From the NCBI RefSeq assembly GCF_007859945.1, contig NZ_SJPQ01000004.1, positions 124,001 to 188,000 of the forward strand: 64,000 nt of DNA, given 5' to 3'. Each line of letters opens with the position of its first letter. Position 1 is the first letter of the stretch. Positions 3,841 through 48,568 of this stretch are shown in pieces. The position numbers and the translations under genes were made by a program. A model generated the notes under the pieces. The model was not told the DNA's origin, did not search any database, and was given only the letters and a program-made list of their open reading frames with translations. The DNA is from Pseudobythopirellula maris. GTDB lineage: Bacteria > Planctomycetota > Planctomycetia > Pirellulales > Lacipirellulaceae.

Positions 3841-3847
3841 CGGCGGC

Positions 3848-26292: not shown

Positions 26293-27792
26293 TCAGACAA
26301 AAGCACGCGCCCGTAGCTCAGCTGGATAGAGCAGCGGACTTCTAATCCGCAGGTCGCTGGTTCGAGTCCAGCCGGGCGTGCTTTGGTTTTCTTTGGCGTC
26401 GGCTCGCATAGAGCCGCTGAAGCCCTTGTTTTTAAGGGACGAAGGCGCGGCAGACGCAACTAGTGGAACGGCCGGTTCGTCGCACCCTCCGGCGCCACGT
26501 CGACCCTTTTCGCGCCCTCTGTGCAGCGCCCTGTGCAGCGCTTCGGGGCGCTCTTCGGCGGGGTGATCTTCCCTCCCCGATGCCCCTGCCGTCTCGGCAG
26601 TCATTGGAGGTAGCAAGTCATCGAGCTTGGCGATGGCGGCAGATTCCTGTCCGGGGAACAGGTGGCCGTACCGATTCATCGTGAGGTTAATATCGCCGTG
26701 ACGCATGATTGTCTGGACCTCCTTCGGGCTCGATCCGGTCTTCGCCAGCCAAGCTCCACAGGTGTGCCGCAGGCTGTGGAAATCGAGTCGCTCGCCCTCG
26801 TGGTTCTCGTTGACCAGAAAATCGCTAAGCTCGCGTCGTTGGCGCTCTTTCAGATCGTGCTTCGACTTCGACAGCCACAATTGCCGGACCGCCTCAATAT
26901 CGGCCCTCAGCATCCTCGCCAGATTTGCCTCGTGCGGCAGGTCGAATACCGGAGACTTGGAGGACTTGGTCGCGATCAGAGACCGCAGGCGGACTGCCAG
27001 AGGGGCCCTGACGTGTTGGCGGGCTCCTTTGCCGTTCTTGGTCTTACCGGCGTCACAGACGACACAGGGACTCTCCCCGTCCAGATGAAGGTTCCCAGGC
27101 TTGAGGCTACGCAGTTCGTTGGCCCTCAGTCCGGTTTCGATAGCGGCTAAGTACAGCGTGCTGCGTTCGCTAGCTGCCATGCCGTAGCGATCCGGTGCAT
27201 CAGTCAGATAAGCCTCTAAATGCCGCCATTCCTGGGGGAGCAGCATCCGTCGTCTTAGCCGCCGATCCTTATCCGGGCTGGGCTTCTTCACGCCGGCAAG
27301 GGGGTCACGGAGGAGCTTCTGCTGCTCGGCAAGCCACTTGGTGAAGCTACGGATAGCGGTGAGGTGGGCGCCGATCGTCCGCGGTGCTCGGCCTTCACTG
27401 CGCAGCTTGCCGGCGTAGCGGTTCACGGAGTCCGGTTCGATGTCGGCAACGACCGTAAATCCTGCAAGATCAGAGATCTGACGGATGAAGCCGATCGTGC
27501 TCCGCACGTGTTTATCGGTACGCCCTGCCGCCTGCATCTTCGACTCAAAGTCCGCCAGATGCGATTCGATCGAACGCCGTGACTGATCGGTAATCGCCTC
27601 GGCATCGGCGTCGATCACACCATGCCGCCGCTGGGCCGCCTCCGATTCGAGCTTGCGGGCGATCGCCTCGGCGGCCGCCTTGTCGGTTGTCTTCGTGTTG
27701 ACTGTCCGTCGTTTTCCCGTGTGGTCGTACCACTGGACTATCCAGGGCTTGCCTTTGGCCTTGCGGCCACCGCGCTTGGTGATTGATGCCAT
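26293..27792 (-). CDS. int: Tyrosine recombinase / integrase
   Basis: A 499-residue site-specific recombinase. Residues ~1-60 form an arm-binding-like domain (GKPWIVQWYDHTGKRRTV); 80-180 are the SAM-like core-binding domain; 190-400 hold the catalytic domain with Arg in ETGLRANELRSL, HSLRHTCGAWL (His-x-x-Arg), His in RHGDINLTMNRYGHL, and the nucleophile Tyr in the same phrase. The frame continues far past the catalytic Tyr, through a Ser/Arg-rich tail, and then antisense through the whole tRNA-Arg, so the last ~28 residues are tRNA antisense and the stop (26293) lies in host DNA. In the excised circle the frame would read across attP into 48108 and down to a stop at 47924. The true functional C terminus may be near the catalytic Tyr. 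Confidence 0.9.
   Translation of the reverse strand: MASITKRGGRKAKGKPWIVQWYDHTGKRRTVNTKTTDKAAAEAIARKLESEAAQRRHGVIDADAEAITDQSRRSIESHLADFESKMQAAGRTDKHVRSTIGFIRQISDLAGFTVVADIEPDSVNRYAGKLRSEGRAPRTIGAHLTAIRSFTKWLAEQQKLLRDPLAGVKKPSPDKDRRLRRRMLLPQEWRHLEAYLTDAPDRYGMAASERSTLYLAAIETGLRANELRSLKPGNLHLDGESPCVVCDAGKTKNGKGARQHVRAPLAVRLRSLIATKSSKSPVFDLPHEANLARMLRADIEAVRQLWLSKSKHDLKERQRRELSDFLVNENHEGERLDFHSLRHTCGAWLAKTGSSPKEVQTIMRHGDINLTMNRYGHLFPGQESAAIAKLDDLLPPMTAETAGASGREDHPAEERPEALHRALHRGREKGRRGAGGCDEPAVPLVASAAPSSLKNKGFSGSMRADAKENQSTPGWTRTSDLRIRSPLLYPAELRARAFV
26307..26380 (+). tRNA. trnR(tct): tRNA-Arg (anticodon TCT)
   Basis: A full cloverleaf of 74 bases. The acceptor stem GCGCCCG pairs with CGGGCGT (first pair G-U); the D arm follows TAGCTCAGC; the anticodon arm is GCGGA-CTTCTAA-TCCGC with TCT at 26341-26343; the T arm is GCTGG-TTCGAGT-CCAGC. 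CCA is not encoded. It reads AGA codons. Its 3' half (from the first base of the anticodon stem) is repeated at 48109, so it is the integration site of the element. In the integrated state the element supplies this half. Confidence 0.97.
26334..26383 (+). repeat. attL: left copy of the 50-bp attachment repeat
   Basis: These 50 bases, from the anticodon stem of tRNA-Arg to three bases past its end, recur without a mismatch at 48109-48158 in the same orientation. The base on each side differs, so the repeat is exactly bounded. Confidence 0.95.
26521..26541. promoter_or_regulatory. Paired GTGCAGCGC sites, left end
   Basis: GTGCAGCGC at 26521-26529 and again at 26533-26541, 12 bases apart, 137 bases inside attL. 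The same pair with the same 12-base period is found near the right end. The left pair lies within the integrase reading frame. They are good candidates for integrase arm-type or excisionase sites. Confidence 0.5.
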
Positions 27793-27906
27793 TTTGGTTG
27801 TACCTTTCGCATTTTATTGTCGCGTGTCGCACTGAGTCGCGCAACCACGCAGACTGTGGTATTTAATTCCTAAGAGAGAATCCGTGAGGCACGCCGCATT
27901 GTACGG

Positions 27907-30294
27907 CTACTGTCGCCCATCGCACCGCGAGTCACTGTCCAAGTCCGATGGCTGGATGTCGTCACAGCCAACTTCATTGAAAACCTTCTCGGCTTCGCTT
28001 TCCTGGAGCACAAACCTGCGGGTCGGCCTGCCACCGCTCTCCCCCGGAGGTTGGCTTTTCCAATCGCCATGACCGGATTTTACGAGAACATTCAGCTCCT
28101 CTTCGATCTCTGCTGCGGTCGCCTTGCTGCGGACCGATCTGTGCAGTTCACGCACCGTGCACGTTCCACCCAAGGAACGGATGTGATCCATCAACTGCTT
28201 CTGTGACCGGTCGGCTTCGTTTGCGTGCAGATCGCCATAGATCCGGCGGGCCTCGTGCTTGAACCACTCCGCCAGCTTGATCCCAGCTACGACGCTCGAC
28301 TCCTCGACGATCCTGGGGTCGTCGCCACCAAGCGCAGAGTCCTTTACGGCCCACACGGCGTAGTGGATTACGAGAGCAAGTCGTGCGGCGTACCCCTCCA
28401 ATTTGGACCACGCGGCGGACAGCTCACCGGTCATCGCAGCTTGCTCGTTCGCATGGTTGTTGTAGAACTCGATCCACACCGGCTTCGCCCTATAGGAGAG
28501 CGATGCTATCCGGGGCTCCAAATCGCCTCTCTCATTCGCTTCGAAATCTAGCTCGTAGAGTCTATCGAAAAGCCTCTCCATAGCGGCAGTCTTATTTGGG
28601 TCGACCTCTTCCTCGGTCCATCTCTTGGGAAGGTGGGGCGGCGACGCAAACAGTAGTCGTGCCGCCATTCCACTTTCCCTGTATTGAGGACTCAAGGCAC
28701 GACGCAAGACTCCGGGCTGGATGCCCCCGGCAATGCTCACGGCGGCACGTGGGACGAATAGGGTGGGCTTGTCCCCGGTCTTCCGATCGACCATGAGTGA
28801 GCGGCCAGCGTGTAACTCGAGCCAACGGGCAGCGTCTCCACCGCTTGCCTGGGAGTAGCGATCGAAGCTATTGAACCACCCCGCGAGTTCATCCCTGGCT
28901 ACCAGGAGCCCCCGTGGCTGATTCGACAGGAGCCCCGCCAACGCCTCAATCGTCAGGTCGTCGGCAACGTACCGTACTGCGATAGGGGCCTCGGGGGCGT
29001 CAGGCTGCGGTCCTTCGCCCCCACGCTTCCTCCTATTGGCTTTGTCCGCATCGTAGAAGTCTTTTTTCGCCAAGTACTCGGTGTTGTTTGCGTCGTGATC
29101 GGCCATCGCTTGGCTTTGGCGACGTCTGACAGGCCCCAACGCGAGTTCGAACGCCGGGCTCTTCATCGTGCCGGAATCGCCGACGATTGCAGTCCACAGG
29201 ATTGCGGGCTCGGTCCAGCCTTTCTTTAACTCGATTCGCCGAGAGTTACCGATCGCCGCCGCCATGGCTGTGAGCATTGGCAGGGCGATGTAACTTGTGT
29301 CGCAACCGATCGCTTTGGCGCCTTCCACGACAAAACCCTTGACCGGCTCTGGAAGCACTTCGACCGGGAAGGGCTCGAAGACCAGCGGTGGCGTCGATGC
29401 CTGTTGCCCCGGTGCATAACGTGCCACGCTGGACGCGATCTGCCTAACTTCCACCGCTTCGAGCGGCGGAAGGCAGCGGGTTTTGTTCTCCGCCAACAGC
29501 GCAGCCTCGATCGCCTCAGGCGACATCCCCCGACGACGCATGCTGCCCGCGAGGCTTGCGAGGGTCGAGTTTCTCGACCCTTCAGCGATGGTTTCGCCTC
29601 CGGGCGAGTCGTACTCCGATGGCGCCGTGGAGTCGCTCTTCTCGATCAGATCGACCAACCACTCGGGGGGCTCGGCAAACGACGCCTCGTCAGGAGATCG
29701 GTCAGTGACCCACTCGTAGCCACCAGACTTGGTCTTGCCGGGGGGGGCCAGCACGTAGCCGCCGTTGGCCCGGATGTCGATTTTGTCGGCGATCTTACCT
29801 ACCGAGCACCTGAGATCCTTTCCCACAGGCATCCGGAAGTAGTAATGCCGACCGCCCCGTGGTGTCGTGGCCGTCACCGTCGCAGGCAAGCTGCCGTTCT
29901 GTGCCTCCAGTTCTTTGAGGGACTCGTCTCCGCCGGGCATGTCGACATCCAGCACCAACACTTCAGAGGTCTCACCTGTCGCGACCGCGACGATGCAGCC
30001 GCCCTTAAACTGCCTCTCGAATACTGTCGGGTTTTTGGTAGCGTCCTTAAATCCTTGCGGGGTGGCAGGTTTCTTGTCTCGATTGCAGGGGAACACCGCC
30101 AAGCCGTGCTGCTCAGCGTAGTGCCCGGCGGCTGTCGTCGGATTCAGGTCCCGTGCTAAAGAGGCTTTAACGCTACCGAACGTGTCTGACGCTGACGAAA
30201 CCCCGTCTTTCCCTGGGATTCGAGAGGTTGTGTCAGTGTCGACGGGGTTGGTCGTCCATTTGTCGGCGCTGGGGGTACTTCTTTCTTGGCTCAT
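27907..30294 (-). CDS. Prim-Pol / DUF3987 replication protein
   Basis: A 795-residue replication initiator-like protein. Residues ~55-215 are the bifunctional DNA primase/polymerase N-terminal domain (archaeo-eukaryotic primase fold), with LDVDMPGGDE carrying the D-x-D and GGRHYYFRMP carrying the catalytic His. About 235-300 is PriCT-1-like (GSRNSTLASLAGSMRRRGMS). From ~320 on is DUF3987, an ATPase-like region often fused to such primases (VGDSGTMKSPAFELALGPV is the P-loop-like segment, with a degenerate Walker A). The C terminus ends with a small winged-helix-like part. It should prime and drive replication of the excised element. It overlaps the preceding HTH gene by ATGA, so they are translationally coupled. 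Confidence 0.85.
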   Translation of the reverse strand: MSQERSTPSADKWTTNPVDTDTTSRIPGKDGVSSASDTFGSVKASLARDLNPTTAAGHYAEQHGLAVFPCNRDKKPATPQGFKDATKNPTVFERQFKGGCIVAVATGETSEVLVLDVDMPGGDESLKELEAQNGSLPATVTATTPRGGRHYYFRMPVGKDLRCSVGKIADKIDIRANGGYVLAPPGKTKSGGYEWVTDRSPDEASFAEPPEWLVDLIEKSDSTAPSEYDSPGGETIAEGSRNSTLASLAGSMRRRGMSPEAIEAALLAENKTRCLPPLEAVEVRQIASSVARYAPGQQASTPPLVFEPFPVEVLPEPVKGFVVEGAKAIGCDTSYIALPMLTAMAAAIGNSRRIELKKGWTEPAILWTAIVGDSGTMKSPAFELALGPVRRRQSQAMADHDANNTEYLAKKDFYDADKANRRKRGGEGPQPDAPEAPIAVRYVADDLTIEALAGLLSNQPRGLLVARDELAGWFNSFDRYSQASGGDAARWLELHAGRSLMVDRKTGDKPTLFVPRAAVSIAGGIQPGVLRRALSPQYRESGMAARLLFASPPHLPKRWTEEEVDPNKTAAMERLFDRLYELDFEANERGDLEPRIASLSYRAKPVWIEFYNNHANEQAAMTGELSAAWSKLEGYAARLALVIHYAVWAVKDSALGGDDPRIVEESSVVAGIKLAEWFKHEARRIYGDLHANEADRSQKQLMDHIRSLGGTCTVRELHRSVRSKATAAEIEEELNVLVKSGHGDWKSQPPGESGGRPTRRFVLQESEAEKVFNEVGCDDIQPSDLDSDSRCDGRQ

Positions 30295-30524
30295 ACCTCA
30301 CCCCCTTCCGTCTTGGCGGCCACGAAGGCTTGCAGCCCATCGGCCGGGTATCGCACGCTGCGGCCGATGCGAACGTGGGGGATCTCGCCCCCAGCGGTCA
30401 GCGACCAGAGCTTGCGGGGGCTGATCGACAAAGCCTTGGCGGCCTGGTCTGCCGTCAGAAGCAACGGCGTCGTGGGGTGGGGAGAGCCAACGCTGTTGGC
30501 TGCTGAGATGGTGTCGTGACTCAT
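30291..30524 (-). CDS. AlpA/excisionase-like HTH protein
   Basis: A 77-residue DNA-binding protein. The core LTADQAAKALSISPRKLWSL, then GGEIPHVRIGRSVRYPADGL, is the MerR-like winged helix of excisionase (HTH_17) proteins. The start at 30524 is preferred; an upstream in-frame start at 30566 adds little. Its stop codon overlaps the start of the replication protein (ATGA). In related elements such proteins help excision and regulate the early operon. The probable operon promoter is in the segment with repeats just upstream (30567-30647). Confidence 0.75.
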   Translation of the reverse strand: MSHDTISAANSVGSPHPTTPLLLTADQAAKALSISPRKLWSLTAGGEIPHVRIGRSVRYPADGLQAFVAAKTEGGEV

Positions 30525-30596
30525 CGTGTCCTCGTGAGTGAAAGGAATGAAAACCTCAACACCCACAAGTTACACAGCTCAGAAGCGGCTCAGCGG

Positions 30597-30630
30597 AGTT
30601 AGCAGCAGTTGAGCCGCAGTTAGCGGCAGT
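30597..30630. repeat. Two AGTTAGC[A/G]GCAGT direct repeats
   Basis: AGTTAGCAGCAGTT at 30597-30610 and AGTTAGCGGCAGT at 30618-30630, 21 bases apart, between the HTH gene and the unknown gene at 30648. They may be operator sites for the HTH protein or small iterons for the replication protein. The evidence is only position and repetition. Confidence 0.35.
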
Positions 30631-30647
30631 CCCACGGCATTGCTTGC

Positions 30648-31997
30648 TCAGGAGGATTGCCGGAGCTCCGAGCAGATTCCTTCGTCAAACCAGTCCGAAC
30701 GCAAGTCAAAGATATAAGACTGCCTAGTTACCTCAATGCACTTGATTTCTCCGTCCTCGATAAGCTTATTGAGGTACTTAACCCCGCTGTCCGGATTTGT
30801 CTTACCTATAAGACACGCAACCCTGCGTTTGGTAACCGGTCTACTCCTGTGCTCTGGCAGGATCACTTCGGCAGTCGCTTGGTCATGCTCTTCGTCCTGC
30901 TCGATTGCCTCATCGAGCAGACGCTTGCTCTCACGCTGTTGGTGTTGCGTCGGTCCCGTAGCCGGTTGTCCCGACGGAGCCTGCCCGTCGCAAAGCCTGT
31001 CCACGGCTTCAGGAACTCCCTCAAAAAAGAAGGGGTAACCCTTGTTCAGATTAATCAGGGCGTCCCCACCACTGCTCTCTTCAAACTCGAGGAACCAGTA
31101 GCTTGTTTCCACAGCCTCCCAGACCACCGCGAGATCATTGCGCTGATCTTCACGGCAGTCGATCAGTTCAAGATCCCCTTGGTTGAGGCGTATCCAAAGG
31201 CGTTCGATCAGCTGGCGCACGTCCCAGCGCTTCTCCGGTTCGACCTGCTGCCACTCCTGTTCCCTCAGCCTTTGGCGATGAGCCTGCTGCTCTACCAACT
31301 CCTCTTGGCTCAGCGGCGCCCGCTGGGACATCGCTTCATCGGATTCGTCCGGTTCGATATCGTGGTCGTCGGGTGGGCCCAGGTCTTCGGAGTCGATCTC
31401 GCAATATCTCTCGATGCAGGTCTCGAGCCGCTTCAGATCACTGCGAATCCATTCGGCTTCGAGTGGGATCAGTCCCATGTTCGAGCTGCTTCTCGGCAAC
31501 GCCCGCACGCGAGGATCGCTGAGCCAGATGCGTATCGCGTGCAGCACCGCCTCACGCAGAGCTTCCTTCTCCTCCGGTGTTCGGGTTTCGCTGTGGTGGT
31601 CGAGGTAACGTTCCCCCCAAGGAAGCGAGACGACCAATCGTCGCTCGTCCGTGATAGAAGCGGTCTGATCTTCAAGCCCGTGACGCTCAACCTCACAGGG
31701 CGAGATCGAGTCAACGTAGGCAAGTGACTCTAGGTCGTACCATTCCTCGTCTCCGTTGGCGCCAGCCACCGCTGCGTCTCCTTCGTCGGAGGCGACACGG
31801 AACTGCTGCCTCAGCGGCTCGGGCAGACCCAAGTCGACCGCGTGCTGAGCAAGGCTTTCCAGGGAATCGGCGAGCGACTTCGATCGCTGGGTCGGATTCG
31901 GGATCTCATCCTCTGAGATAGCGAGGATCTCGATCGCACGCTCAGCCGATCTTCGGTATCGTAGTGCGGCTCTTGTCTCAGGAGTTGATCTTGGCAT
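30648..31997 (-). CDS. Hypothetical protein with C-terminal winged-helix-like segment
   Basis: About 449 residues from ATG 31997 (MPRSTPETRAALRYRRSAER); starts at 32021 and 32042 are also open. The N-terminal part is helical and charged. The middle has WLSDPRVRALPRSSSNMGLI and a helix rich in Glu/Gln (LSQEELVEQQAHRQRLREQE). The last ~60 residues (TKRRVACLIGKTNPDSGVKY, with LIEDGEIKCIEVTRQSYIFDL) have the look of a winged helix. No known family is recognised. It is transcribed leftward like the replication genes and is divergent from the restriction operon, 130 bases away, so it could control that operon; this is inference. Confidence 0.5.
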   Translation of the reverse strand: MPRSTPETRAALRYRRSAERAIEILAISEDEIPNPTQRSKSLADSLESLAQHAVDLGLPEPLRQQFRVASDEGDAAVAGANGDEEWYDLESLAYVDSISPCEVERHGLEDQTASITDERRLVVSLPWGERYLDHHSETRTPEEKEALREAVLHAIRIWLSDPRVRALPRSSSNMGLIPLEAEWIRSDLKRLETCIERYCEIDSEDLGPPDDHDIEPDESDEAMSQRAPLSQEELVEQQAHRQRLREQEWQQVEPEKRWDVRQLIERLWIRLNQGDLELIDCREDQRNDLAVVWEAVETSYWFLEFEESSGGDALINLNKGYPFFFEGVPEAVDRLCDGQAPSGQPATGPTQHQQRESKRLLDEAIEQDEEHDQATAEVILPEHRSRPVTKRRVACLIGKTNPDSGVKYLNKLIEDGEIKCIEVTRQSYIFDLRSDWFDEGICSELRQSS

Positions 31998-32127
31998 AGC
32001 GCTCGCACCGATTCGGAACATATCGACTGCACTGGGAGTCAAGCAACTCCCGCTGAGTCGCCTAATCTGCTACATAATGCTACTTCATATTGGCGTTGCT
32101 TAAGCAGTCCTCTCTTCGTCGTGACGC

Positions 32128-35100
32128 ATGGAAAACCCTTTTTTCGATCAGCCGATTCTCAACTCTCCCTACGAGTACCCAACGAGCCACTGGGAACTTG
32201 ACGAAGAGGGGCAGCCGACTCAGCAGGTAATCGCGAGCCGTAGGCCCGCCAAATTCGTCACGCCAATCCCCAAGGCTAAGAAACGGAACCGGTCCAAGCA
32301 GCGTTCGCTTGAGATGGGCGACGAGGACGTCGATTTCGATGTCTCCACCGCCGAGCAGGAGTACGCCAAGACCGCCCGACTGGTCAACGACATCCGCGCC
32401 GAAGTGGACGCCTGGCGGAAGGACCACACGCGCGACAACAATGTCACGCCCGAAACGGCTCGACTGCTAGAACACTGGCGGAACCATCCTTTCAGCAGCG
32501 TACGCCCGTTCTTCTGCCAACTCGAGGCGGTCGAGACCGCCATCTGGCTGACCGAGGTCGCCCCCAAGACTGCGCGCGGCAAGGACTTTCTCTCCCGACT
32601 CGATGAGGCGAATGACGAGGCCAACCCGGGGCTCAACCGCTTGGCGCTCAAGCTCGCCACCGGCGCCGGCAAGACGACCGTCATGGCGATGCTCATCGCT
32701 TGGCAAACGATCAACGCGGTGCGACGACCCGGAAGCAAACGCTTCACGCGTGGCTTCTTGATCGTCGCCCCCGGCCTCACGATCAAGGACCGTCTCCGCG
32801 TCCTCCAGCCCAACGACCCTGACAGCTACTACGCCTCTCGCGAGCTGGTCCCCAACGACATGCTGCGCGAGTTGGGCCGGGCGGAAATCGTCATCACCAA
32901 CTACCACGCCTTCAAGCTCCGCGAGCGGATGGAGCTGGCCAAAGGAACCCGGGCGCTGCTCGAAGGCCGCGAAGAAGAGATGCAAACCCTCGAAACCGAG
33001 GGCCAGATGATCCAACGCGTCATGCCCAACCTGATGGGCATCAAGAACGTGATGGTCCTCAACGACGAGGCGCACCACTGCTACCGCGAGAAGCCGGGCG
33101 ATCCTGTTGAAGATGACGAGCTGGACGCCGACGAGAAGCACGACGCCAAGGAGAATGCCGAAGCGGCCCGCATGTGGATATCGGGATTGGAGGCCGTCAA
33201 TCGCAAGCTCGGCCTCAATCGCATCGTCGACCTCTCCGCCACGCCGTTCTTCCTTCGCGGGTCGGGTTACGCCGAAGGGACCCTTTTTCCTTGGACGATG
33301 ACTGACTTCTCGTTGATGGACGCCATCGAGTGCGGCATCGTCAAGCTGCCGCGGGTGCCGGTCGCCGACAACCTACCCGGCGATCAGATGCCGATCTATC
33401 GCGACTTGTGGAAGCACATCCGCAAGAAGATGCCCAAGAAAGGACGCGGCACAAAGCAGAGGAAGGGAGAAACGCAGGTCGATCCGCGCAAGCTGCCAGC
33501 CGAGCTGATGGCGGCCCTCGACGCCCTCTACGGCCACTACAAGAAGACCTACGCGTCATGGCAAAAGGCCGGCATCGACGTGCCACCATGCTTCATCGTT
33601 GTTTGCAGCAACACCTCCGCGTCGAAGCTCATCTACGACTACATCTCCGGGTTCGACCGGCTGACCGAAGAGGGGGAAGTCTCTTACGTTCCCGGGCAGC
33701 TCGAACTCTTCCGCAACTACGACGAGTACGGCCAGCCGCTCGCCCGGCCAAACACGCTGCTGATCGACAGCCAGCAACTCGAGTCGGGCGAGGCGCTCGA
33801 CAAGAACTTTCGTGACGCGGCGTCCAACGAGATCGCCCGGTTCCGTGAGGAAATCATCGAGCGGACCGGAAGTCGCCAGGAAGCCGAGAACCTATCCGAG
33901 TCCGACCTGCTTCGCGAGGTGATGAATACCGTAGGCAAGAAGGACCGGCTCGGCGAACAGATCCGCTGCGTCGTCTCGGTCTCGATGCTCACCGAGGGCT
34001 GGGACACCAACACCGTGACCCACGTCCTAGGCGTTCGGGCCTTCAAGACCCAGCTGCTCTGCGAGCAAGTCATCGGCCGGGCCCTGCGGCGGCAGAACTA
34101 CGAGATCAACGAGCAGGGGCTGTTTGACGTCGAGTATGCCGACATCCTCGGCATCCCATTCGACTTCACCGCGAAGCCGGTTGTCACGAAGCCGACGCCG
34201 CCACGCCCGACGGTTCGGGTGCAAGCGGTCCGCCCGCAGCGCGACGTATGCGAAATCCGCTTTCCTCGGGTTGAGGGCTACCGCATCGACCTGCCGAGTG
34301 AGGAACTCGATGTCGAGTTCACGGCCGAGTCGATCCTCGAACTCTCGACCGATTTGATTGGTCCGACTGAGGCCCGCAACCAAGGCATAATCGGCAAACC
34401 CGTCGATCTCAACCTGATCCATACCGGGAAGGTGCGGGCCAAGACGATCGCGTTCGAGCTTGCCCAGCAGCTTCTCGAAACGCGTTTCCGTGACGCCAAC
34501 GAAGACCCCAAACAGCACCTCTACTTTCCATTGGTTCGCGTCTGCGAAAAGTGGATCGATCAGTGCCTCAAGTGCCGCGCAGGCACGTTCCCCGCCCAGC
34601 TCAAGTACCGGCCGATCGCTGAGATGGCGTGCGAGCGTATCTACGCCGCCATCACGACCCGTTTTGCCGATGAGCGGCCGGTGACGGCGATCCTCGATCC
34701 CTACAACCCAACCGGTTCGACGGCTCACGTCGGCTTCAACACGTCGGCTTCTCAATTGTGGGAGACAGACTCGCGACGATGCCACATCAACTACGCTGTG
34801 CTCGATAGCAGCTGGGAGGGCGAGTTCTGCCGCCTTGCCGAGCAGCACCCTCGGGTGTACGCCTACGTCAAGAACCACAACATGGGGTTCGAGGTTCCTT
34901 ACCGCGACGGCAGTCGGCAGCGACAGTACGTGCCCGACTTCATCTTGCTGGTGGACGACGGCAACGGACGCGATGACCCGCTGCACCTGGTGGTCGAGGT
35001 CAAAGGCTACCGTGGCGAGAACGCCAAGGACAAACGCCTGACGATGGACACCTACTGGGTACCCGGCGTCAACAATCTCGGCACGCATGGCCGGTGGGCG

Positions 35101-35205
35101 TTTCAAGAACTGACCCGCATTCTGGAGATGAGTGGCGACTTCGACGAGCGCCTCGAAGAAGAGTTCCGCAACATGATCGCTGCAACCGGAGACCGTCGTG
35201 TTTGA
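32128..35205 (+). CDS. res: Type III-like restriction endonuclease helicase subunit (BPTD_3080-like)
   Basis: A 1025-residue SF2 translocase with a nuclease domain. Walker A is LATGAGKTT at residues ~177-184; the DEAH-type Walker B is VLNDEAHHCYRE near 308-318; motif VI is found in VIGRALRRQNY near 650. The C terminus has a PD-(D/E)XK core: VPDFILLVDDG with VVEVKGYRG near 934-962. This fits the Res subunit of type III and related ATP-dependent restriction enzymes, which cut after meeting unmodified sites. It is the first gene of a four-gene operon; the second gene starts 8 bases before its stop (GTGTTTGA), a translational coupling. ATG at 32128. Confidence 0.9.
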   Translation: MENPFFDQPILNSPYEYPTSHWELDEEGQPTQQVIASRRPAKFVTPIPKAKKRNRSKQRSLEMGDEDVDFDVSTAEQEYAKTARLVNDIRAEVDAWRKDHTRDNNVTPETARLLEHWRNHPFSSVRPFFCQLEAVETAIWLTEVAPKTARGKDFLSRLDEANDEANPGLNRLALKLATGAGKTTVMAMLIAWQTINAVRRPGSKRFTRGFLIVAPGLTIKDRLRVLQPNDPDSYYASRELVPNDMLRELGRAEIVITNYHAFKLRERMELAKGTRALLEGREEEMQTLETEGQMIQRVMPNLMGIKNVMVLNDEAHHCYREKPGDPVEDDELDADEKHDAKENAEAARMWISGLEAVNRKLGLNRIVDLSATPFFLRGSGYAEGTLFPWTMTDFSLMDAIECGIVKLPRVPVADNLPGDQMPIYRDLWKHIRKKMPKKGRGTKQRKGETQVDPRKLPAELMAALDALYGHYKKTYASWQKAGIDVPPCFIVVCSNTSASKLIYDYISGFDRLTEEGEVSYVPGQLELFRNYDEYGQPLARPNTLLIDSQQLESGEALDKNFRDAASNEIARFREEIIERTGSRQEAENLSESDLLREVMNTVGKKDRLGEQIRCVVSVSMLTEGWDTNTVTHVLGVRAFKTQLLCEQVIGRALRRQNYEINEQGLFDVEYADILGIPFDFTAKPVVTKPTPPRPTVRVQAVRPQRDVCEIRFPRVEGYRIDLPSEELDVEFTAESILELSTDLIGPTEARNQGIIGKPVDLNLIHTGKVRAKTIAFELAQQLLETRFRDANEDPKQHLYFPLVRVCEKWIDQCLKCRAGTFPAQLKYRPIAEMACERIYAAITTRFADERPVTAILDPYNPTGSTAHVGFNTSASQLWETDSRRCHINYAVLDSSWEGEFCRLAEQHPRVYAYVKNHNMGFEVPYRDGSRQRQYVPDFILLVDDGNGRDDPLHLVVEVKGYRGENAKDKRLTMDTYWVPGVNNLGTHGRWAFQELTRILEMSGDFDERLEEEFRNMIAATGDRRV

Positions 35206-37012: not shown

Positions 37013-37032
37013 CACCGGAATAGATCGCCACG

Positions 37033-39909: not shown

Positions 39910-39918
39910 GGAGCAGCC

Positions 39919-40782: not shown

Positions 40783-40994
40783 GCAGCGACGAACGCATCA
40801 TCGACACAAGCATTCCATGCCTGGTGAGCGGCGTCTTGATGACCGGCAAACATTACGCGTGCCTGATCGCCACTGCGGAGCGGCTAGCGGTTAGCGACAG
40901 AGCTGCTGGGAGGGGTGATGAGGCATGCGGCGCGCCGCACCCGTGGACCCCCGGAGTTTCCGCAAAAAACGCGCACGCCCCCCATGTCGGCTAA
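40779..40994 (+). CDS. Short reading frame coupled to the nuclease-like gene
   Basis: A 71-residue frame starting with GTG that overlaps the preceding stop (GTGA). Residues 1-45 (LMTGKHYACLIATAERLAV) look like a normal protein, but the rest is Gly/Pro/Ala-rich and has no fold. It could be a small accessory protein, a truncated gene end or chance. It is kept because of the overlap only. Confidence 0.25.
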   Translation: MSSDERIIDTSIPCLVSGVLMTGKHYACLIATAERLAVSDRAAGRGDEACGAPHPWTPGVSAKNAHAPHVG

Positions 40995-41015
40995 GTGGCA
41001 TTTCGGCTGTGCATC

Positions 41016-44000
41016 TCAACCCACCCCCCCTGCCAATTCGATCGCGGTTTCGAGCCGTTCTCGCGCCGACTTGGCGAGCCGCGACAGCCCGATTTCGCGA
41101 GCGAAGGCGATCGCCGGGTCGTCGCTCGAAGTCAGATCGGGTCGGCTCGAGACCAAGCCGATGAGTTCCGCCATCGGGATCTCGTCGAGGCTTCGCCGTT
41201 CGTCCTCGGGCGCCGCGTGGCGGAATGGCGCGGTCGCGGCGGGCTTGTCGCTGGGCCATAGGAACCGGCCGGCTTCTTCCTTGGTCGAGGTGACCTCGGG
41301 GATCATCGCCAGCACCCGATCACGGATCCTCGCCCCGGTTCGTGCGAACCCGTGAGCCCGTGCGATGCGTCGCGCTAGCACGTCGTCTCGGATCGGGCCT
41401 TCGGTCTCGACGATCGCCAACGCCAATTCTCGAAGATCACGGGAGTATTCGTCGTCATAGAATCGGTCCTGGTCCGCGGTGCGGTCGTCCAGTTTGGTGA
41501 TGACATAGGCCTTTCGTGGCTTGTCATTCGAAGCCTGCTTGGCGACAAGCCGGGGGTGGCGGCTGTCATCGGTCGCAGGCGCGTCGGCGATCTCGTGCGT
41601 GTAGTTGACCGGCGGTAGGAGATCGTCACCGGCGGCGCCTGCCCTTGGCGGCGTAAACGCCTGAAGGCCCTCCGGCGAATCTTCGTTGGCCGGCGTGCTT
41701 GAGGGCCGGTCGCCCTCTCGAGAGGCTTGCAGCAGGCTGGTGAGCCGGTTGTGCAGGTCATCGATCGCCGCGTCGGGGTGGCGCCACCAATCGGGCGACC
41801 ATACCCGCAAGATATTCCAGCCGAGGTTCTCGAGCACCTGCTGGCGTGTCTTGTCCCGATCGCGAGCCGCCGCCGCCCGTAGGTAGGCGGCGCCGTCGCA
41901 TTCGATCCCCGCCAAGTAGGCTTCTGGTCGGTCGGGGTGGACGACCCCCAGGTCGACACGGAACCCCGAAACGCCCACCCCGGGGGTCAAACTCCACCCA
42001 CGGCTTTCGAGGGCCACACTGACCGCCTGCTCGAAACAGGGGGCCGCGTCGCCCGTCGATTCTATCGTGGCGGCGAGGACCGTCTCCGGCCCCTTGTGGG
42101 CGTATTCCAAGAAGGCCTTGAGGTCGTGCACGCCCCGTGCCTTGGATCGATCGGCCCGCAGCTCGTCGGGCAGGAAGGAAGCGAAGACACGCAACGCCTG
42201 CCGGGCCCGGGTCACCGCCACGTTCAGCCGCCGTTCGCCCCCCTCCCGGTTGATGGCCCCGAAATCGACGGGGAACTTGCCCGCCGCGTCCTTGCCGAAA
42301 GTGATCGAGAAATACATCACGTCTCGCTCGTCGCCCTGGACGTTCTCCAGGTTCTTGACGGCGGTCGGCTCGACGCGGTCGTCGGCAAAGAACCACTCCA
42401 ACTCGGGGGCGTCTCGCAGGGCCTGGTCGAACAGGTCTTGGATCAGAGCCTGCTGTTGGCTGTTGAACGTCACGACGCCGTAAGTCAGACGCTCCCCTTC
42501 GGGCCTGGCGAGGCAGCGACGCATCCGCTCGACGGCGTCGGCCACGATCGCCTCGGCCTCCGCGCGGTTGGTGCGGCTCTTGCCACGGTCGTACAGCCCT
42601 CCCGCCACTGGGATCAACGATACGCCCCGGTCTTCCGACTCCGCCGCCGGGAAGGTGACTAGTCCGTCGCCGTAATAATGGTGATTAGAGAAGGCGATCA
42701 GCGATTCGTGGCGGCTGCGGTAGTGCCAGTTGAGCACCAACTCGGGCAAGCCCGAGGCGTGCGCCTCGTCGAGGATGCTCGCCAGGTCCTTCTCGTAGTC
42801 TTCGAGTTCGGCGTTGTCTTCGTCGTCGTCGGCCTTGCCAAAAAAGTTGGTCGGGGGAAGCTGCTTCGGGTCGCCGACAATGATCGTTTGCTTGCCGCGG
42901 GCGATCGCCCCGATCGCGTCCCAGGTAGCGATCTGCGACGCCTCGTCGAAGACGACCACGTCGAACGGCGCCTGATCCGCCGGCAGGTACTGCGCGATCG
43001 ACAGCGGCGACATCATCAGGCACGGCGCGAGCTTGCTGAACGTCTCGGGCATGCCGGAGATCAATTCACGGATCGATTTGCTCGGCCGCTTCAGCCCTAT
43101 TTGGTGCCGGAGCAGCCCTAACTCTGACTTGCGAGGGACCTGCTCGCTCGCTGGAAGGCCGTGGTAGATTGCCTGCACCGCCCGGGGCGCCGCGGCCTTG
43201 CGAGCCGATTCATCGAGTTGGCAAAAGTCCTTGATCGCGTCCTCGTGACGGATCCGCTGAAATTTCCTCAACGCGTCGGACTGGTCCACCGCCAACGGCA
43301 GCCACCAGCGGGCGTAGGCGTGTTCGAATCGCGAAGCGGCCTCTTCGACCGTGAACTCGCCCCGTTGCAACGATGCGACGAAAGGCGCCAGGCCAAGCGT
43401 CTCGGCACGGCGACGAGCCGCCGTCCACGCGATCCACTGATTCAGCACGGAACGATTGGAGAGAACCCGCTCCGCCTGTTCCGCCGCGTCGCGGACGACC
43501 GAGACGGAGGCTTTCGGGACGGGCGTCACCTCCGCGAGCCTGGCGTACTCTTGCCATGCGTTCTGGAAATCCTTAGCGCTTCGGCGGCAATCGGACGCCG
43601 ATTGGCGCCCTTCTTCGGTCAGCGATGCCTGCAGCCCAGCGACCGACGCGTTCGACAAGCCGAGCGTCGCTGCGATTTCACGGAGTCGCCCCGCGGCCTC
43701 GAGCTGCGAGTCGAGGGCGGAGCCATCTTCCAACACCTCCGCTTGAAGATCGGGAGGGAGATCGAGCGCCGCCATGTTCTCCTGCAGCTCGATGCGTAGC
43801 TGCTCCATCACACGCCCTGGTGGGTAGAGACGCCGGGCGGCAGCGATCAACGGCTCGAGTGATTGACGGTTGGCCTCTCCGACACGCTCCGGTGAGCTCT
43901 CGGCCGCGACGAACGCGTCACGCAACCGGCGGGCCGCTTCGAGCGGCGGGCGAAGGCTCGGCGGGTCTTGGTCGACAGCCAACTGCAGCTCCTGAGGCAG

Positions 44001-47000
44001 CGCCATGGACGCGTGGTTTTCCGCCAGCAGATCCTGACTATCCAGATGCTCTCTTAGCAAAGGGAGATCGATGTCGGGTTCCGCGGTGGCGTCCGCCGGC
44101 ATGTAGGCCTTGAGTTTCTTCGTGACGCTCCTCCGGCGGAGGAGCGACAGCGGCCATATTGATCCGACGGCCTTGAGCCATGCCGCTTCGATCTCGTCGA
44201 GTCTGATCCGCTTCACGAGCGAGGGGTTGAAGCGGCGAGCATCGATCATTTCCCAGGCATCGGCTCTCTGCTTCAGCAGTATCTCGTGCCTTGTGAGTTG
44301 TTCCGGAAGGCTGTCGAAGGCGGCGTGGAAGACGAGTGGGGCAGGGGGGGGATCGGGTTTAACCAACTCGTTCGCCAAGCGGTAGTACATCGGCTTAGCG
44401 TCTTCCGGCGGTTGGTCGCGTGGCGGGGCGCCGAGCGCGGCGGCGAAGGAAGATAGGGCCTCATTCAGATCCCTTCGGGAACGCTCGCGACGCTCAAGCA
44501 ATTCACGCCTTGCGGCAAGCAACGCCTTGAGCTCATCAATTTTTTCGTGAAGGACGAGCGATTCAGCGGGCTGTTCGCCACCTAGCAACTCTTGGGTCAG
44601 GCGATAGAGGGCGCCCAGTTGTGCAGCAGAAATATTCGCGGACAGCGGCAAGCCAATTGCCTTCGAAAGCTGCCCTACTCCGTCAGCCAGCGAATCAGAC
44701 GATTCTTTCAACCGGCCGCACGTTGCCAGGAAGTCTTCCTCCCACGCCATCGACCATTCGGCCGCTTGCATGCGGCCCAGGTCGGCGTTGTCGGGCAACG
44801 CTACGTAATCGAAAATGATTTCGTCAACCGATTTCCTGAGTGTTTCGTAGTCGTCCCTGATTAGGGGGCGGTCACGGGACCAACCGAGATCGACCGCCTT
44901 CGAATCCTGCCGATCGGCACAAACGCCCATCGCCCGGTAAGCAGTCCATCCATTCGGGTGCACGGCATGGAGCGCAGCGACGTACGCGTTGAGTTCATCG
45001 CGACGCAGCCGCAAGCTGTCGTTCACCGCGATCCACTCACGGTCCCCTTGCCGAGAAGGCCTTTTCCAGGAGACCTCGAGCTGATCTAGCAAGCGGCGGC
45101 GCTCCGCTTTGTTTGAATGAAGCTCAACACAGCAATCCCCCAGCCCGTGTTGACGGAGGCGACGGTGCACGACGTCCAGGGCCGCGGTCTTCTCCGCGAC
45201 AAAAAGCACGGTCTTGCCCACAGCCAAGCACTGCGCGATCAAGTTGGCGATCGTTTGGCTTTTGCCGGTCCCGGGGGGGCCGATGATCACCAAGTCGTGC
45301 CCCTCCGACACAGCCATCACAGCAGTCAATTGCGAGGAATCCGCCGGCAGCGGATGAAAGAGGTCGCTCGGCTCATAGCGTGTATCGATCTCATGCGGAC
45401 GCGGGATCGGTCCGACATCGCTCCGCGCGAAGGCCTTGTCCGGTTCATTGACCAAATGACGCACCACCCGGTTGCGTTCGAGCTGGTCAACCCGGTCTAC
45501 CAAGTCTTTCCACATCAGGTACTTCGCGAAGGAGAAGGAGGCGACCGTCGCTTCTTCGACCACTTCGAACCCCGGTATGTCCCGGACCGCGCGTCGCATG
45601 CGGTCGAGCACCCGGGGGACGTCGATCCCACTGTCGTCGGTCGGCAGATCCGACTCCATCGCCGTGAGGTCACAGTCGAAATCTTTTTTCAAGAGTTGCA
45701 ACAGGGTTGCGTTGAAGCGGACATCGTCTTCGTGGTGGGCGAAGTAGAACGGTGATGAAGCGCTACGCCGCAAAAGTTTTACCGGCACGAGAAGCAGCGG
45801 GGCTCGATAGGTCTTCTCGGCCGTAGGCGTTTGCTTCCAGCGTAGGAACCCCACCGCGAGGTACAGCGTGTTGCACCCACCCTCGGCCAGGTCGTTCTTC
45901 ACCTTTCGAAAGAGGGCTGTCAAACGCTTCTCGAGGTCGTGCGACTCGATCGGACACGCCACCTCGCCACGCTCCAACGCCTCACTCGCGAACTCAAGAT
46001 CGAGGTCTTTCCGCGTGCGTTGCTGGTGGAGCGCGGGGTCGCGGTCGACGACAGCGTTGTGCTCATTCAGCGACACCAACCGCATCCGTGACCCATCCGC
46101 CAGGAGGTCTTCCAGCCGTGAGACGTTCGGGCAGAGAACAGGGATCGTCTGTTTGTTCGGCCGGAAATTCAGCAGCTTGTTTCGCAGGGAGAGGTCCAGT
46201 AATTTTCGCTGCCACCGCTCGACCCGACCCGCGGGGGTTTGAGGAAGGGGGTCGTCTTGCTCGGCTAGAGGACGCTCGTATCCCGGAGTGTCTGGCAGCG
46301 CCGGCGGCCCGGCCCCCTCGGCCTCTTGCGCGGGTTTGACGTCGCGCGCGCCGTGCGACGCGAGCGGACGGATCTGCGACATCCGGGCCCTCGCCACATC
46401 CACGGCAGCGACGAATTCGTGCTCACAAGCCTCGGAAACCTTGGCTTCGGCTGCGCGGATCGCATCGGCGAACTTGGCCGCGGGAACGTGAGTGACGAGC
46501 GTAGTCTCGAACACGACTAGCTCCTTAGCCGACAAGGCCTTCCGAACCTCGCTGCAATCCGGCTCACAGAGGCGGTTGAAGGTCTTCTCGGTCAGCCAGA
46601 CACCCGCAAAGCAGTGGCCCTCGGTCATCAGGACCACCGGATGGAGCCCGATCGCCTCCAATCCCGAAGCGAAGAGCAAGGATGTGTCGAGGCATGTCGC
46701 CAAGCCGTCTCCGAGCACCGTGGTGACACGACGAGTCTTCTGACCGACCTGTTCGAAACTGCCGGGCGGGTTGGCGTACGTCAAAGACCTAGCCGCCACC
46801 GCAGACCACAGGGCCGCAGCCAGCATGTACGACCGATTGGGGTCACCCGACTGGTAGCCATCGAGCGCCGCAGGGTGACCATGACTGCTGAGAATCTCAG
46901 CCGTCGATTTGAGCAGAGGGGAGAGCGCAGGCTCATTGGGCGTCACGAATGCCGGGAGCAACTCTCCCATCCCTCCCATGCCGCCCCACTCGTCACGGGC

Positions 47001-47384
47001 GAGGACGCGCACGGACTCGCAAGTCTCGGCAAGTGATTGCTCGCCCTTCCGCAGTCGGAATACGAGCACGCCTCGGATCGCTTCGTCGAGAGAATCGAGA
47101 TAGTCGGCGTCAACCTCGATATCGACATCACTCAGAGAGATTTGCTGGCCGGCTCCTATACGGTCAATGATCCAGCTCTTGGGGCGGACGAATGCGGGGC
47201 TCGTCGTCAGTTCGACGATGACCGACTCCAAGTCTTCCCCCGTCGGGTTGTGCACGACCACCGATCGCAGCAAAGGGATAGCGTTCTGCCACGCCGCGTA
47301 GTTGAAGCACTGCTCTACGGTGGCGACTATCCATGGATTTACCTCCTCGCGTACTTGCGAGCCTTCGCGTTCTGACAACGGCAT
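41016..47384 (-). CDS. DUF4011-SF1 helicase-Vsr-like nuclease defence protein
   Basis: A 2122-residue protein. In order: N-terminal beta domain (~20-125); a transglutaminase-like segment (~170-360) with TCLDTSLLFASGLEAIGLHP and EGHCFAGVWL, giving a possible Cys-His pair; DUF4011 (~385-660); SF1 helicase with P-loop VIIGPPGTGKSQT near 700, long helical insertions, FDEASQIATWDAI near 1480 and FNSQQQALIQDLFDQAL later; a Vsr/MTES_1575-like nuclease (~1800-1880, IECDGAAYLRAAAARDRDK and ENLGWNILRVWSPDWW); and DUF3320 (~1970-2110). The DUF4011-helicase-Vsr architecture is that of single-gene anti-phage systems reported in defence islands (Hhe type). Its location in an integrative element beside restriction genes supports defence. 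It converges with the restriction operon. Confidence 0.85.
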   Translation of the reverse strand: MPLSEREGSQVREEVNPWIVATVEQCFNYAAWQNAIPLLRSVVVHNPTGEDLESVIVELTTSPAFVRPKSWIIDRIGAGQQISLSDVDIEVDADYLDSLDEAIRGVLVFRLRKGEQSLAETCESVRVLARDEWGGMGGMGELLPAFVTPNEPALSPLLKSTAEILSSHGHPAALDGYQSGDPNRSYMLAAALWSAVAARSLTYANPPGSFEQVGQKTRRVTTVLGDGLATCLDTSLLFASGLEAIGLHPVVLMTEGHCFAGVWLTEKTFNRLCEPDCSEVRKALSAKELVVFETTLVTHVPAAKFADAIRAAEAKVSEACEHEFVAAVDVARARMSQIRPLASHGARDVKPAQEAEGAGPPALPDTPGYERPLAEQDDPLPQTPAGRVERWQRKLLDLSLRNKLLNFRPNKQTIPVLCPNVSRLEDLLADGSRMRLVSLNEHNAVVDRDPALHQQRTRKDLDLEFASEALERGEVACPIESHDLEKRLTALFRKVKNDLAEGGCNTLYLAVGFLRWKQTPTAEKTYRAPLLLVPVKLLRRSASSPFYFAHHEDDVRFNATLLQLLKKDFDCDLTAMESDLPTDDSGIDVPRVLDRMRRAVRDIPGFEVVEEATVASFSFAKYLMWKDLVDRVDQLERNRVVRHLVNEPDKAFARSDVGPIPRPHEIDTRYEPSDLFHPLPADSSQLTAVMAVSEGHDLVIIGPPGTGKSQTIANLIAQCLAVGKTVLFVAEKTAALDVVHRRLRQHGLGDCCVELHSNKAERRRLLDQLEVSWKRPSRQGDREWIAVNDSLRLRRDELNAYVAALHAVHPNGWTAYRAMGVCADRQDSKAVDLGWSRDRPLIRDDYETLRKSVDEIIFDYVALPDNADLGRMQAAEWSMAWEEDFLATCGRLKESSDSLADGVGQLSKAIGLPLSANISAAQLGALYRLTQELLGGEQPAESLVLHEKIDELKALLAARRELLERRERSRRDLNEALSSFAAALGAPPRDQPPEDAKPMYYRLANELVKPDPPPAPLVFHAAFDSLPEQLTRHEILLKQRADAWEMIDARRFNPSLVKRIRLDEIEAAWLKAVGSIWPLSLLRRRSVTKKLKAYMPADATAEPDIDLPLLREHLDSQDLLAENHASMALPQELQLAVDQDPPSLRPPLEAARRLRDAFVAAESSPERVGEANRQSLEPLIAAARRLYPPGRVMEQLRIELQENMAALDLPPDLQAEVLEDGSALDSQLEAAGRLREIAATLGLSNASVAGLQASLTEEGRQSASDCRRSAKDFQNAWQEYARLAEVTPVPKASVSVVRDAAEQAERVLSNRSVLNQWIAWTAARRRAETLGLAPFVASLQRGEFTVEEAASRFEHAYARWWLPLAVDQSDALRKFQRIRHEDAIKDFCQLDESARKAAAPRAVQAIYHGLPASEQVPRKSELGLLRHQIGLKRPSKSIRELISGMPETFSKLAPCLMMSPLSIAQYLPADQAPFDVVVFDEASQIATWDAIGAIARGKQTIIVGDPKQLPPTNFFGKADDDEDNAELEDYEKDLASILDEAHASGLPELVLNWHYRSRHESLIAFSNHHYYGDGLVTFPAAESEDRGVSLIPVAGGLYDRGKSRTNRAEAEAIVADAVERMRRCLARPEGERLTYGVVTFNSQQQALIQDLFDQALRDAPELEWFFADDRVEPTAVKNLENVQGDERDVMYFSITFGKDAAGKFPVDFGAINREGGERRLNVAVTRARQALRVFASFLPDELRADRSKARGVHDLKAFLEYAHKGPETVLAATIESTGDAAPCFEQAVSVALESRGWSLTPGVGVSGFRVDLGVVHPDRPEAYLAGIECDGAAYLRAAAARDRDKTRQQVLENLGWNILRVWSPDWWRHPDAAIDDLHNRLTSLLQASREGDRPSSTPANEDSPEGLQAFTPPRAGAAGDDLLPPVNYTHEIADAPATDDSRHPRLVAKQASNDKPRKAYVITKLDDRTADQDRFYDDEYSRDLRELALAIVETEGPIRDDVLARRIARAHGFARTGARIRDRVLAMIPEVTSTKEEAGRFLWPSDKPAATAPFRHAAPEDERRSLDEIPMAELIGLVSSRPDLTSSDDPAIAFAREIGLSRLAKSARERLETAIELAGGVG

Positions 47385-48108
47385 CCTTCATTCCTCTTGC
47401 TCTGTGTATCACATCAGACAGGAGCTTCCTGTTAGCCGGGGACAAACGAATGATGAGCAATGTCCGAACAGGCCCTAGCGTGCATTCTGGCTACCCCAGC
47501 GCAGCTCGCGTCTACCCCACGAAGAAAATTGTAGCTGTCGCCGCCGGCGCTTGCTCGTTGTACTCCGACAATCTCAGACTCTGAGTGCTAGAGAGGGCAA
47601 CGCAGCTTTACTTGTAGTCCACCTAGATGCGTGCTTGAGGTGTACATGACGCAATTATCCAACCAGGCGTCGTGAGCCCCAGGCTCGGTCTCCGATAGGT
47701 TTCGGCGTCATATGGGTCTAAACGCCTAGAAAAAAGAGAACTCACGCCCCCGTGATATCCTGCTCGCAGACCCAAATCGATACGGGCACGGCAGGTTGGC
47801 AAAGCACAGACCGCAGAGCCCCCCAAGGCTTTGCCAAGATAACGTCTGTGCTGGACCAGTCGGGGCTCGACTTGTTCAAGACAATGGATCATGACCCATC
47901 CGCTCAGAGACAGCGAGTCGCAGCTATTCGCACAGGGAGCGAACCATTGCCAAGATTCCCGTTTGTGCGGCCCGGGGAAGCTTCGTCCAAGACTCAACAA
48001 CTAGTAACAGATCGGGATCGAGCCCGCACGATGCGTCGTCGAGTGCAGCGCATAGTGCAGCGCTATCCTGAGAATCGACTTCTTCCGCGGTGAATAGATC
48101 ATCTGCGT
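47385..48108. other. Right end of the element, no clear gene
   Basis: No well-supported protein gene. The promoter of the helicase gene should lie near 47385-47600. A frame at 47752-48093 (plus strand) lacks features. On the minus strand the integrase frame would, in the excised circle, run from attP through 48108 down to the stop at 47924-47926. Lower GC and short repeats are seen near 48043. Confidence 0.45.
48043..48063. promoter_or_regulatory. Paired GTGCAGCGC sites, right end
   Basis: GTGCAGCGC at 48043-48051 and 48055-48063, 12 bases apart, 45 bases inside attR. It matches the pair at 26521-26541 in sequence, period and orientation. Likely arm-type sites for the element integrase. Confidence 0.5.
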
Positions 48109-48158
48109 GCGGACTTCTAATCCGCAGGTCGCTGGTTCGAGTCCAGCCGGGCGTGCTT
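48109..48158 (+). repeat. attR: right copy of the attachment repeat
   Basis: Identical to 26334-26383. It carries only the 3' part of tRNA-Arg, without the acceptor 5' strand or D arm, so it cannot make a tRNA. Confidence 0.95.
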
Positions 48159-48242
48159 CTCAGACCCCCGTTTCGTGAGCCTCCGGCTCGCCGCTCTTCG
48201 GCTGATCCGCCTCCGGGTTATGAGCGCTGCTCTCAGCGTTAC

Positions 48243-48403
48243 CTAGAGCGGTATTCGAATTGGTGTGGACGAGGGGGGAAGCGATTGGCGGCGTGGCGAG
48301 GAAGCCGAAGCAGGCAATGCGGTGCATTATCGATGCAGGCTGACGAAGCCATGACGCCGATCGCGAGCCGAGCGTCTACACCAATGAGCAAACCGCTCTA
48401 GAG
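48243..48403. repeat. MITE-like element with CTAGAGCGGT terminal inverted repeats
   Basis: Left end CTAGAGCGGTATTCGAATTG (from 48243) and its inverse ending ACCGCTCTAG at 48401 match over about 29 bases with few changes (shared TTGGTGT-GACG part). About 160 bases long with no coding capacity. It lies directly outside attR. Such ends are typical for non-autonomous palindromic elements. Confidence 0.55.
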
Positions 48404-48568
48404 CCTCAGTACTGGCAAGTTCGCCCGTTTACCGCTTCTCGGATCAACCGAGCGCGCGCTTGCTCGGACTCCTCGCTCGACTCTAAATGTGTCGCCGGCA
48501 GTTGACACTGTCATCTGTGCCTACCGGTTCACGCAGCTAAAAAGCCTGGAAATCACCGGATTCATGGG

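Follow-up and report, generated by a model that had tools for sequence, protein, structure and literature searches.

A planctomycete integrative defence element with a probable attachment site inside its integrase gene and a C-terminal integrase tail predicted to be severed by integration

Results

An integrative element in tRNA-Arg(TCT)

We analyzed a 64,000-nucleotide stretch of the Pseudobythopirellula maris genome (contig NZ_SJPQ01000004.1, positions 124,001 to 188,000; hereafter "the window") that carries an integrative element at positions 26334-48158. The open reading frame (ORF) of its integrase gene (int) extends beyond the terminal attachment (att) repeat and the target tRNA gene to terminate outside the element. 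The features that bear on int and its product (Int) are listed here with their coordinates in the window.

26293..27792, minus strand: int in its integrated form, 499 amino acids; passes through attL and the whole tRNA gene; its stop codon, 26293-26295, is host DNA
26307..26381, plus strand: tRNA-Arg(TCT), the integration target (attB); ARAGORN, and Rfam RF00005 at 70.4 bits
26334..26383, plus strand: attL core, 50 bp, within the tRNA gene and antisense within the int ORF; exact repeat
26521..26529, minus strand: arm-like repeat GCGCTGCAC, int-side arm, inside the int coding sequence; word search
26533..26541, minus strand: arm-like repeat GCGCTGCAC, int-side arm; word search
47924..48108, minus strand: predicted severed C-terminal Int tail, 61 residues (first codon split by the junction) and then a stop; motif at 47927-48031
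48043..48051, minus strand: arm-like repeat GCGCTGCAC, tail-side arm, inside the tail coding sequence; word search
48055..48063, minus strand: arm-like repeat GCGCTGCAC, tail-side arm; word search
48109..48158, plus strand: attR core, 50 bp; the tail frame stays open back across it; exact repeat and frame reading

The two cores are identical over 50 bp, lie 21,775 bp apart from start to start and head the list of repeats found in 25800-48700. ARAGORN places the tRNA gene at 26307-26381 and Rfam at 26307-26380, and by base count the repeat starts at base 28 of the gene, which is the first base of the anticodon stem. These results bear out the initial annotation, which had described perfect 50-bp repeats bounding 21.8 kb and beginning at the anticodon stem of tRNA-Arg(TCT). 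When a 301-base query around the tRNA was searched against the same genome, the 13 matches listed were the query itself, the attR copy and 11 others. The attR copy (50 bp at 100%) was the sole other perfect core match among them, and the remaining 11 showed 77-86% identity. The GC content of 4-kb windows is 0.60-0.65 inside the element versus 0.656-0.679 in nine flank windows. It is also low just past attR (0.606 at 48001-52000), and therefore the right end is not marked by GC. An imperfect inverted repeat with 29-nt arms (48243-48401, 83%, 101 nt between the arms) lies outside attR.

The initial annotation had also proposed a search of related strains for empty tRNA-Arg(TCT) loci. This comparison yielded no flank-matched empty attB, there being no genome of the same genus and no synteny of neighboring genes. 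Among the tRNA-Arg(TCT) loci of 15 relatives (16-20 kb fetched for each), 14 hold a single copy of the core and one holds two. The single-copy loci are compatible with empty sites, though they do not prove them. The two-copy locus (L068, genome G010) has tRNA-Arg(TCT) at 3793-3867 and a second core fragment at 14258-14303, 10.4 kb away and without a tail match; it is probably another insertion at this tRNA gene.

Integrative defence elements of tRNA genes are defined by an integrase, defence cargo and exact direct repeats that keep the target gene whole, and all of these were found here. The data support 26334-48158 as such an element, with two or more defence modules, a replication protein and a helix-turn-helix (HTH) protein resembling recombination directionality factors.

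The int frame crosses the att core into a conserved tail

Residues R223, K252, H339, R342, H365 and Y375, which we take to be the catalytic residues of a tyrosine integrase, are invariant in the window Int and seven relatives, and all of them precede the cut at residue 486. When the ends of the element are rejoined, as they would be on an excised circle, the window Int frame continues for 61 residues and lengthens from 499 to 547 amino acids. The relatives G004, G024 and G027 gain length in the same way (487 to 544, 486 to 554 and 488 to 566 amino acids, respectively). These four rejoined Ints end alike, with invariant D, P, L, W, L and R residues. In the integrated form, the tail motif (47927-48031) lies just inside attR, in a frame that is open back through the core.

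As read from the rejoined ends, the attP core is embedded in int, between the catalytic domain and the conserved C-terminal tail. The predicted translations show that the state of the DNA, free or integrated, sets which C-terminus the int frame encodes. The initial annotation overlooked both the attP within int and the loss of the integrase tail upon integration. We consider it highly probable that this is an integrative defence element with attP inside its integrase gene and a tail that is cut off by integration.

Related elements in tRNA-Met of G004 and G024 also carry exact att repeats, of 53 and 49 bp, and a third, in G027, carries one of 20 bp; no repeat of at least 14 bp was found within the stretches fetched for eight other relatives' regions. 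A short motif, ATGTD, directly follows the catalytic domain in divergent integrases (L228, L298 and several relatives) and is less clear in the window (ASGRE).

The tail could instead be a stability or localization tag on the free-form integrase that is lost on integration, comparable to the ssrA-like tag of mycobacteriophage immunity. The geometry there is the same, with attP in a coding gene that loses its 3' part at integration, according to two papers (PMC9934374, PMC8092301). The alignment of the tails argues otherwise, because the conserved part is the W..L segment ahead of the last residues and the ends themselves differ (SLCE, ST, CRT and ANP). We regard the tag explanation as unlikely.

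Arm-like repeats, reading frames and selection

In the window, the 9-mer GCGCTGCAC occurs in four copies, two per arm and 12 bp apart, and nowhere else in 22.6 kb. These repeats would look like the arms of a lambda-like attP set in coding sequence. We compared 150 and 250 bases on the two core sides and found a word of at least 10 bp common to both sides in 10/10 elements. Its tail-side copy lies at +43 to +59 and its int-side copy at -124 to -186; the sequence of the shared word is element-specific. For six elements, shuffled sequences reached the observed word length in 0/200 trials; the other four gave 3, 5, 8 and 10 of 200, the window being the element with 10.

We then compared reading frames across the core. 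The int frame is the tail frame in all 14 elements with both ends and a recognizable int. This set comprises 11 of the 24 elements in one comparison plus G034, L193 and L194, with int in the far-end frame recognized by eye, and it includes G027b, whose repeat matches over 14 bp, and G034, which was admitted for the similarity of its translated ends. Between core and tail, the tail frame is open in 10/10 elements, and the alternative frames are closed in 19/20 cases. In the window, the single stop in this interval is the tail's own. Codon differences among 61 distinct tail segments (673 pairs), which include a few from non-integrase proteins, number 5550, 3206 and 8457 at positions 1, 2 and 3. 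This pattern shows that the predicted tails are under selection at the level of protein sequence.

Unsplit genes and tandem-like loci

Two contigs carry int, core and tail as one unsplit gene. The IMG/VR contig of L228 (15.2 kb) has a terminase match, and here a contiguous ORF of 550 codons covers int, a core resembling a tRNA, and the tail without any joining of ends. The contig L298 (9,200 bp) has exact repeats of 99 bp at its two termini; taken as a circle of 9,101 bp, it has a single int-core-tail frame of 580 codons. The cores of both resemble a tRNA 5' half, with Rfam tRNA scores (26.7 and 26.4) below the gathering score of 29. L298 also encodes the small subunit of a terminase and a DnaB-like helicase, and this gene content suggests a phage satellite. 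A predicted structure of the L228 Int, built from a four-row alignment and of low overall confidence (mean predicted local distance difference test score 67.8), would have a disordered linker (residues 385-509 below 50) and a tail of two short helices (73, 81 and 70 for its three final blocks).

Neither the L228 Int against isolated phages nor the window Int against plasmids gave a match at E 1e-8, and a class II int had none among viral contigs. The L228 Int matched only itself and one partial sequence, at 40%, among viral contigs. An IMG/VR contig end (L299, IMGVR_UViG_3300036820_000070) carries an antisense tRNA 3' half like tRNA-Arg(TCT) and then a tail in frame.

C-terminal int remnants joined in frame to a tail were recognized by eye in L099, L100 and L130, and one more is found in L193. 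Two loci, L193 and L194, are tandem-like: an int remnant runs in frame through the core to the tail and a second int lies beyond, with exact cores of 45 and 47 bp.

Observations that weigh against attP within int

Several observations weigh against the reading of attP as part of int. The frame could not be assessed in 13/24 elements, of which 11 lack a 14-bp repeat at the far end within the stretch fetched (G017a, G021a-e, G048, G189, G016, G171 and G260) and two are ambiguous, with an int side that is not recognizable (G017b and G017c). Also left out of the count was a G017 tail at 1123982, which lies 57 kb from int and where the first part of the core is read in a different frame from that of int. 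Agreement would arise by chance in one of three elements, and the elements share kinship. When linkers are shuffled, the tail frame stays open in 22-55% of cases. The int extension ahead of the core is nearly neutral, with values of 0.467/0.492/0.575 at codon positions 1/2/3 versus 0.338/0.249/0.629 for the catalytic domain, and therefore this stretch would be at most a linker. The circularity of L298 is deduced from its terminal repeats. Of the 101 int loci fetched, 67 were examined; among these, the tail follows directly after int in one (L228) and lies upstream in two, with flanks that are mostly no longer than 10 kb and thus below the length of most elements. Finally, int, a tRNA-like core and the tail are contiguous yet out of frame and overlapping at the core in L123 (G042:C265) and L124 (G126:C21), and the relic L125 is frameshifted. 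L123 and L124 are possibly products of frameshift, decay or a hybrid junction. A tandem junction as their cause was not supported, there being no second tail of at least 22 bits in the adjoining stretches.

The open shuffled linkers and the nearly neutral extension would also fit ordinary read-through, in which the overlap of int with the tRNA is fortuitous and the far-end conserved ORF is an independent small gene. Overlaps between int and tRNA genes are common in annotation. Read-through is nevertheless opposed by the 14/14 frame agreement, which holds though different loci use all three core-word frames, and by the arm geometry, and it is contradicted by the contiguous genes of L228 and L298. 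The independent small gene at attR was itself rejected on the frame agreement, the arm geometry and these natural fusions. We give read-through very little credence.

Relatives and distribution of the tail

In 10/11 relatives' regions (seven at tRNA-Met and three at tRNA-Lys), int enters the tRNA gene antisense and ends in its 5' part, at base 7 or bases 19-21; truncated or partial ints occur among these ten in G009, G034 and G035. The remaining int, G024b, departs from this pattern with a 716-residue frame running past tRNA-Ser. AlpA-like genes are present in 8/11 regions, including all seven whose int aligns over its full length.

The tail motif was matched in 157/396 genomes of the order (E 0.01), a figure that is not a count of split integrases because the motif also occurs on non-integrase proteins, a kinase-like one and HTH proteins among them; this too counts against our reading. 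A broader tail profile was matched in 60/294 genomes of the phylum (E 1e-5), likewise a count of the motif. By eye, a tail-like motif is present in kinase-like, LuxR-like and XRE-like proteins at L101 and L102 (G368 and G390), L132 (G062) and L281 (G427). A T-loop-like antisense tRNA word lies within 450 bases upstream in 22 of the 30 tail loci returned, and each of the three possible frames with respect to the tail is represented; the word is short and some of these 22 may be chance matches. The titles of 72 named loci with related integrases include 63 of planctomycetes, and the other nine are mainly weak matches or metagenome-assembled genomes of other labels. No archaeal record title was found among these 72.

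These comparisons bear on a suicide-type explanation, in which the tailless Int is inactive and integration is locked until an intact relative provides full-length Int in trans. The attP-in-int logic discussed for archaeal SSV-type elements is consistent with this explanation, as are the int remnants joined to tails and the tandem-like arrangement of an int or remnant beside another tail in L193 and L194. The catalytic domain is unsplit here, unlike in the archaeal case, and an AlpA-like gene is kept in all seven relatives' elements with a full-length int. We regard the suicide type as possible but on the improbable side.

Gene content and defence cargo

The integrase matches PF00589 at 63.3 bits, with PF02899 and PF13495 also listed (E 0.01). 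The other genes of the element are as follows.

27907..30294, minus strand: Prim-Pol / PriCT_1 / DUF3987 replication protein, 795 amino acids; PF09250, PF08708, PF13148
30291..30566, minus strand: AlpA/excisionase-type HTH protein, 91 amino acids; PF12728, and TIGR01764 at 34.3 bits versus a cut-off of 28.8
30648..32042, minus strand: protein without family match, 464 amino acids, with a 47-residue similarity to a protein of a relative's element; family scans
32128..35205, plus strand: BPTD_3080-family restriction endonuclease (superfamily 2 helicase and nuclease), 1025 amino acids; NF046055 at 1320.4 bits versus a cut-off of 800; PF04851
35198..37012, plus strand: DUF262/GmrSD_N protein, 604 amino acids; PF03235 at 106.4 bits
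37033..39909, plus strand: type III-like DNA methyltransferase, 958 amino acids; PDLC03632 at 1317.8 bits; PF01555
39919..40782, plus strand: protein without family match, 287 amino acids; family scans
41016..47384, minus strand: ProA anti-phage protein (DUF4011-helicase-MTES_1575-DUF3320), 2122 amino acids; NF058533 at 2067.7 bits versus a cut-off of 1500

Both the restriction enzyme and ProA exceed curated NCBIfam cut-offs. The 464- and 287-residue proteins have no family in any of the scans, and the C-terminus of the latter, read by eye, makes a nuclease possible. The ORF scans, which did not take in every small ORF, brought out no family for capsid, terminase, relaxase or conjugation functions; there were only weak cross-matches in helicase/nuclease proteins (traC at 22.1 bits versus a cut-off of 520.6, and a PHROG head-closure family at 24.3 bits). 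The initial annotation had listed an integrase, an excisionase-like HTH protein and a Prim-Pol protein, together with mainly defence-like cargo of at least two anti-phage modules and no capsid or transfer genes. The family matches agree with it: PF00589, TIGR01764 and Prim-Pol/PriCT_1/DUF3987 for the backbone, and the NF046055 restriction enzyme, the methylase, the DUF262 protein and the NF058533 ProA for the cargo.

Among 58 other genomes, the restriction enzyme is found at 50% identity or more in two and at 36-38% in four more, and ProA at about 65% in two and as partial matches of 39-40% in two more. The defence cargo is accessory by this distribution, and both defence genes are sporadic. 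In the G024 homologue, the restriction and methylase genes are adjacent, whereas the window has the DUF262 gene (35198-37012) between them. A second DUF4011/ProA-like region lies in the same genome about 43 kb past the element (G000:C4:214915-216666, 41% over 592 residues).

The locus might be simply a compact defence island or satellite with an ordinary recombination module, which was the initial annotation's reading. The cargo and backbone are as that reading expects, but the severed conserved tail is left unaccounted for, and we consider it most improbable that this description is complete.

Discussion

We propose that integration itself changes the integrase. By sequence, one frame of the rejoined molecule encodes Int, a linker containing an arm repeat, the core and an arm repeat, and the tail. 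In the chromosome, this frame is cut at the core, such that Int ends a few residues on at a host codon and the tail is left as an orphan frame at attR. Full-length Int, encodable only from the free molecule, would be the form that integrates, and integration would at once abolish it. The tailless Int would keep its catalytic core and excise together with an AlpA-type factor. Excision would be retained because the six catalytic-type residues precede the cut and AlpA-like genes are kept. For the same reasons, namely the position of these residues and the presence of AlpA in all seven elements with full-length int, we favor a switch of direction over suicide. The function of the tail is one that we infer from sequence, and we judge the chances to be evenly balanced that the tail licenses integration while the tailless form still excises with AlpA.

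We lean slightly towards a more general model, in which a large set of phages, satellites and defence elements in planctomycetes use "tail-switched" integrases with attP and both arms in coding sequence. The tailed form would be made only on free DNA and would drive integration. Insertion into a tRNA gene, with the tRNA or its flank providing the stop, would then give the tailless form and set direction without a transcriptional signal. Tandem insertion would remake tailed hybrids when the frames match.

In tyrosine integrases, the choice between integration and excision is usually attributed to accessory factors and promoters. If our proposal is true, recombination itself gives the recombinase a different C-terminus, and the new end comes from host sequence. 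The principle of the self-severing integrase would then extend to bacteria, in a milder form that spares catalysis. As a practical marker for mapping planctomycete elements, orphan tails behind tRNA fragments would indicate attR ends, and unsplit genes would point to free molecules.

Parts of this arrangement are familiar from other elements. Satellites of the phage-inducible chromosomal island (PICI) type are defined by an integrase, an AlpA or other regulator and a primase-type replication protein. The window element resembles such satellites and integrative defence islands in having Int, an AlpA/regulator, a primase-type replication protein and cargo, with no structural genes found. No packaging gene or relaxase was found among the families searched in the window element, and no search was made for a helper phage. 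In P22-type tyrosine integrases, the 3' end of int overlaps attP and reads into the core; we know of no such overlap in which a conserved domain is cut off. A literature search of open-access papers found no bacterial self-severing integrase among the titles listed.

The closest likeness is to the archaeal SSV-type (type I) integrases, in which the att core also lies in int, integration splits the gene and only the free element carries it intact. In a 2021 review, these suicidal integrases are called exclusively archaeal, with a disrupted gene whose Int(C) part holds the catalytic domain (PMC8371274). By contrast, the catalytic domain here is whole (R223-Y375, before residue 486), only the C-terminal tail would be lost, and the host is a bacterium. 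The window Int also differs in its families, with PF00589, PF02899 and PF13495 listed (E 0.01) and not Phage_integr_3 (PF16795).

Integration-dependent immunity offers the second parallel. There, attP lies inside the repressor gene, the 3' end is severed and the free and integrated forms have different C-termini, as described in PMC9934374 and PMC8092301. The severed gene in that system is a repressor, whereas here it would be the integrase, and an ssrA-like tag is not evident in the tail. Reading frames constrain tandem insertion, according to PMC9934374, and this parallels the case of the integrase tail.

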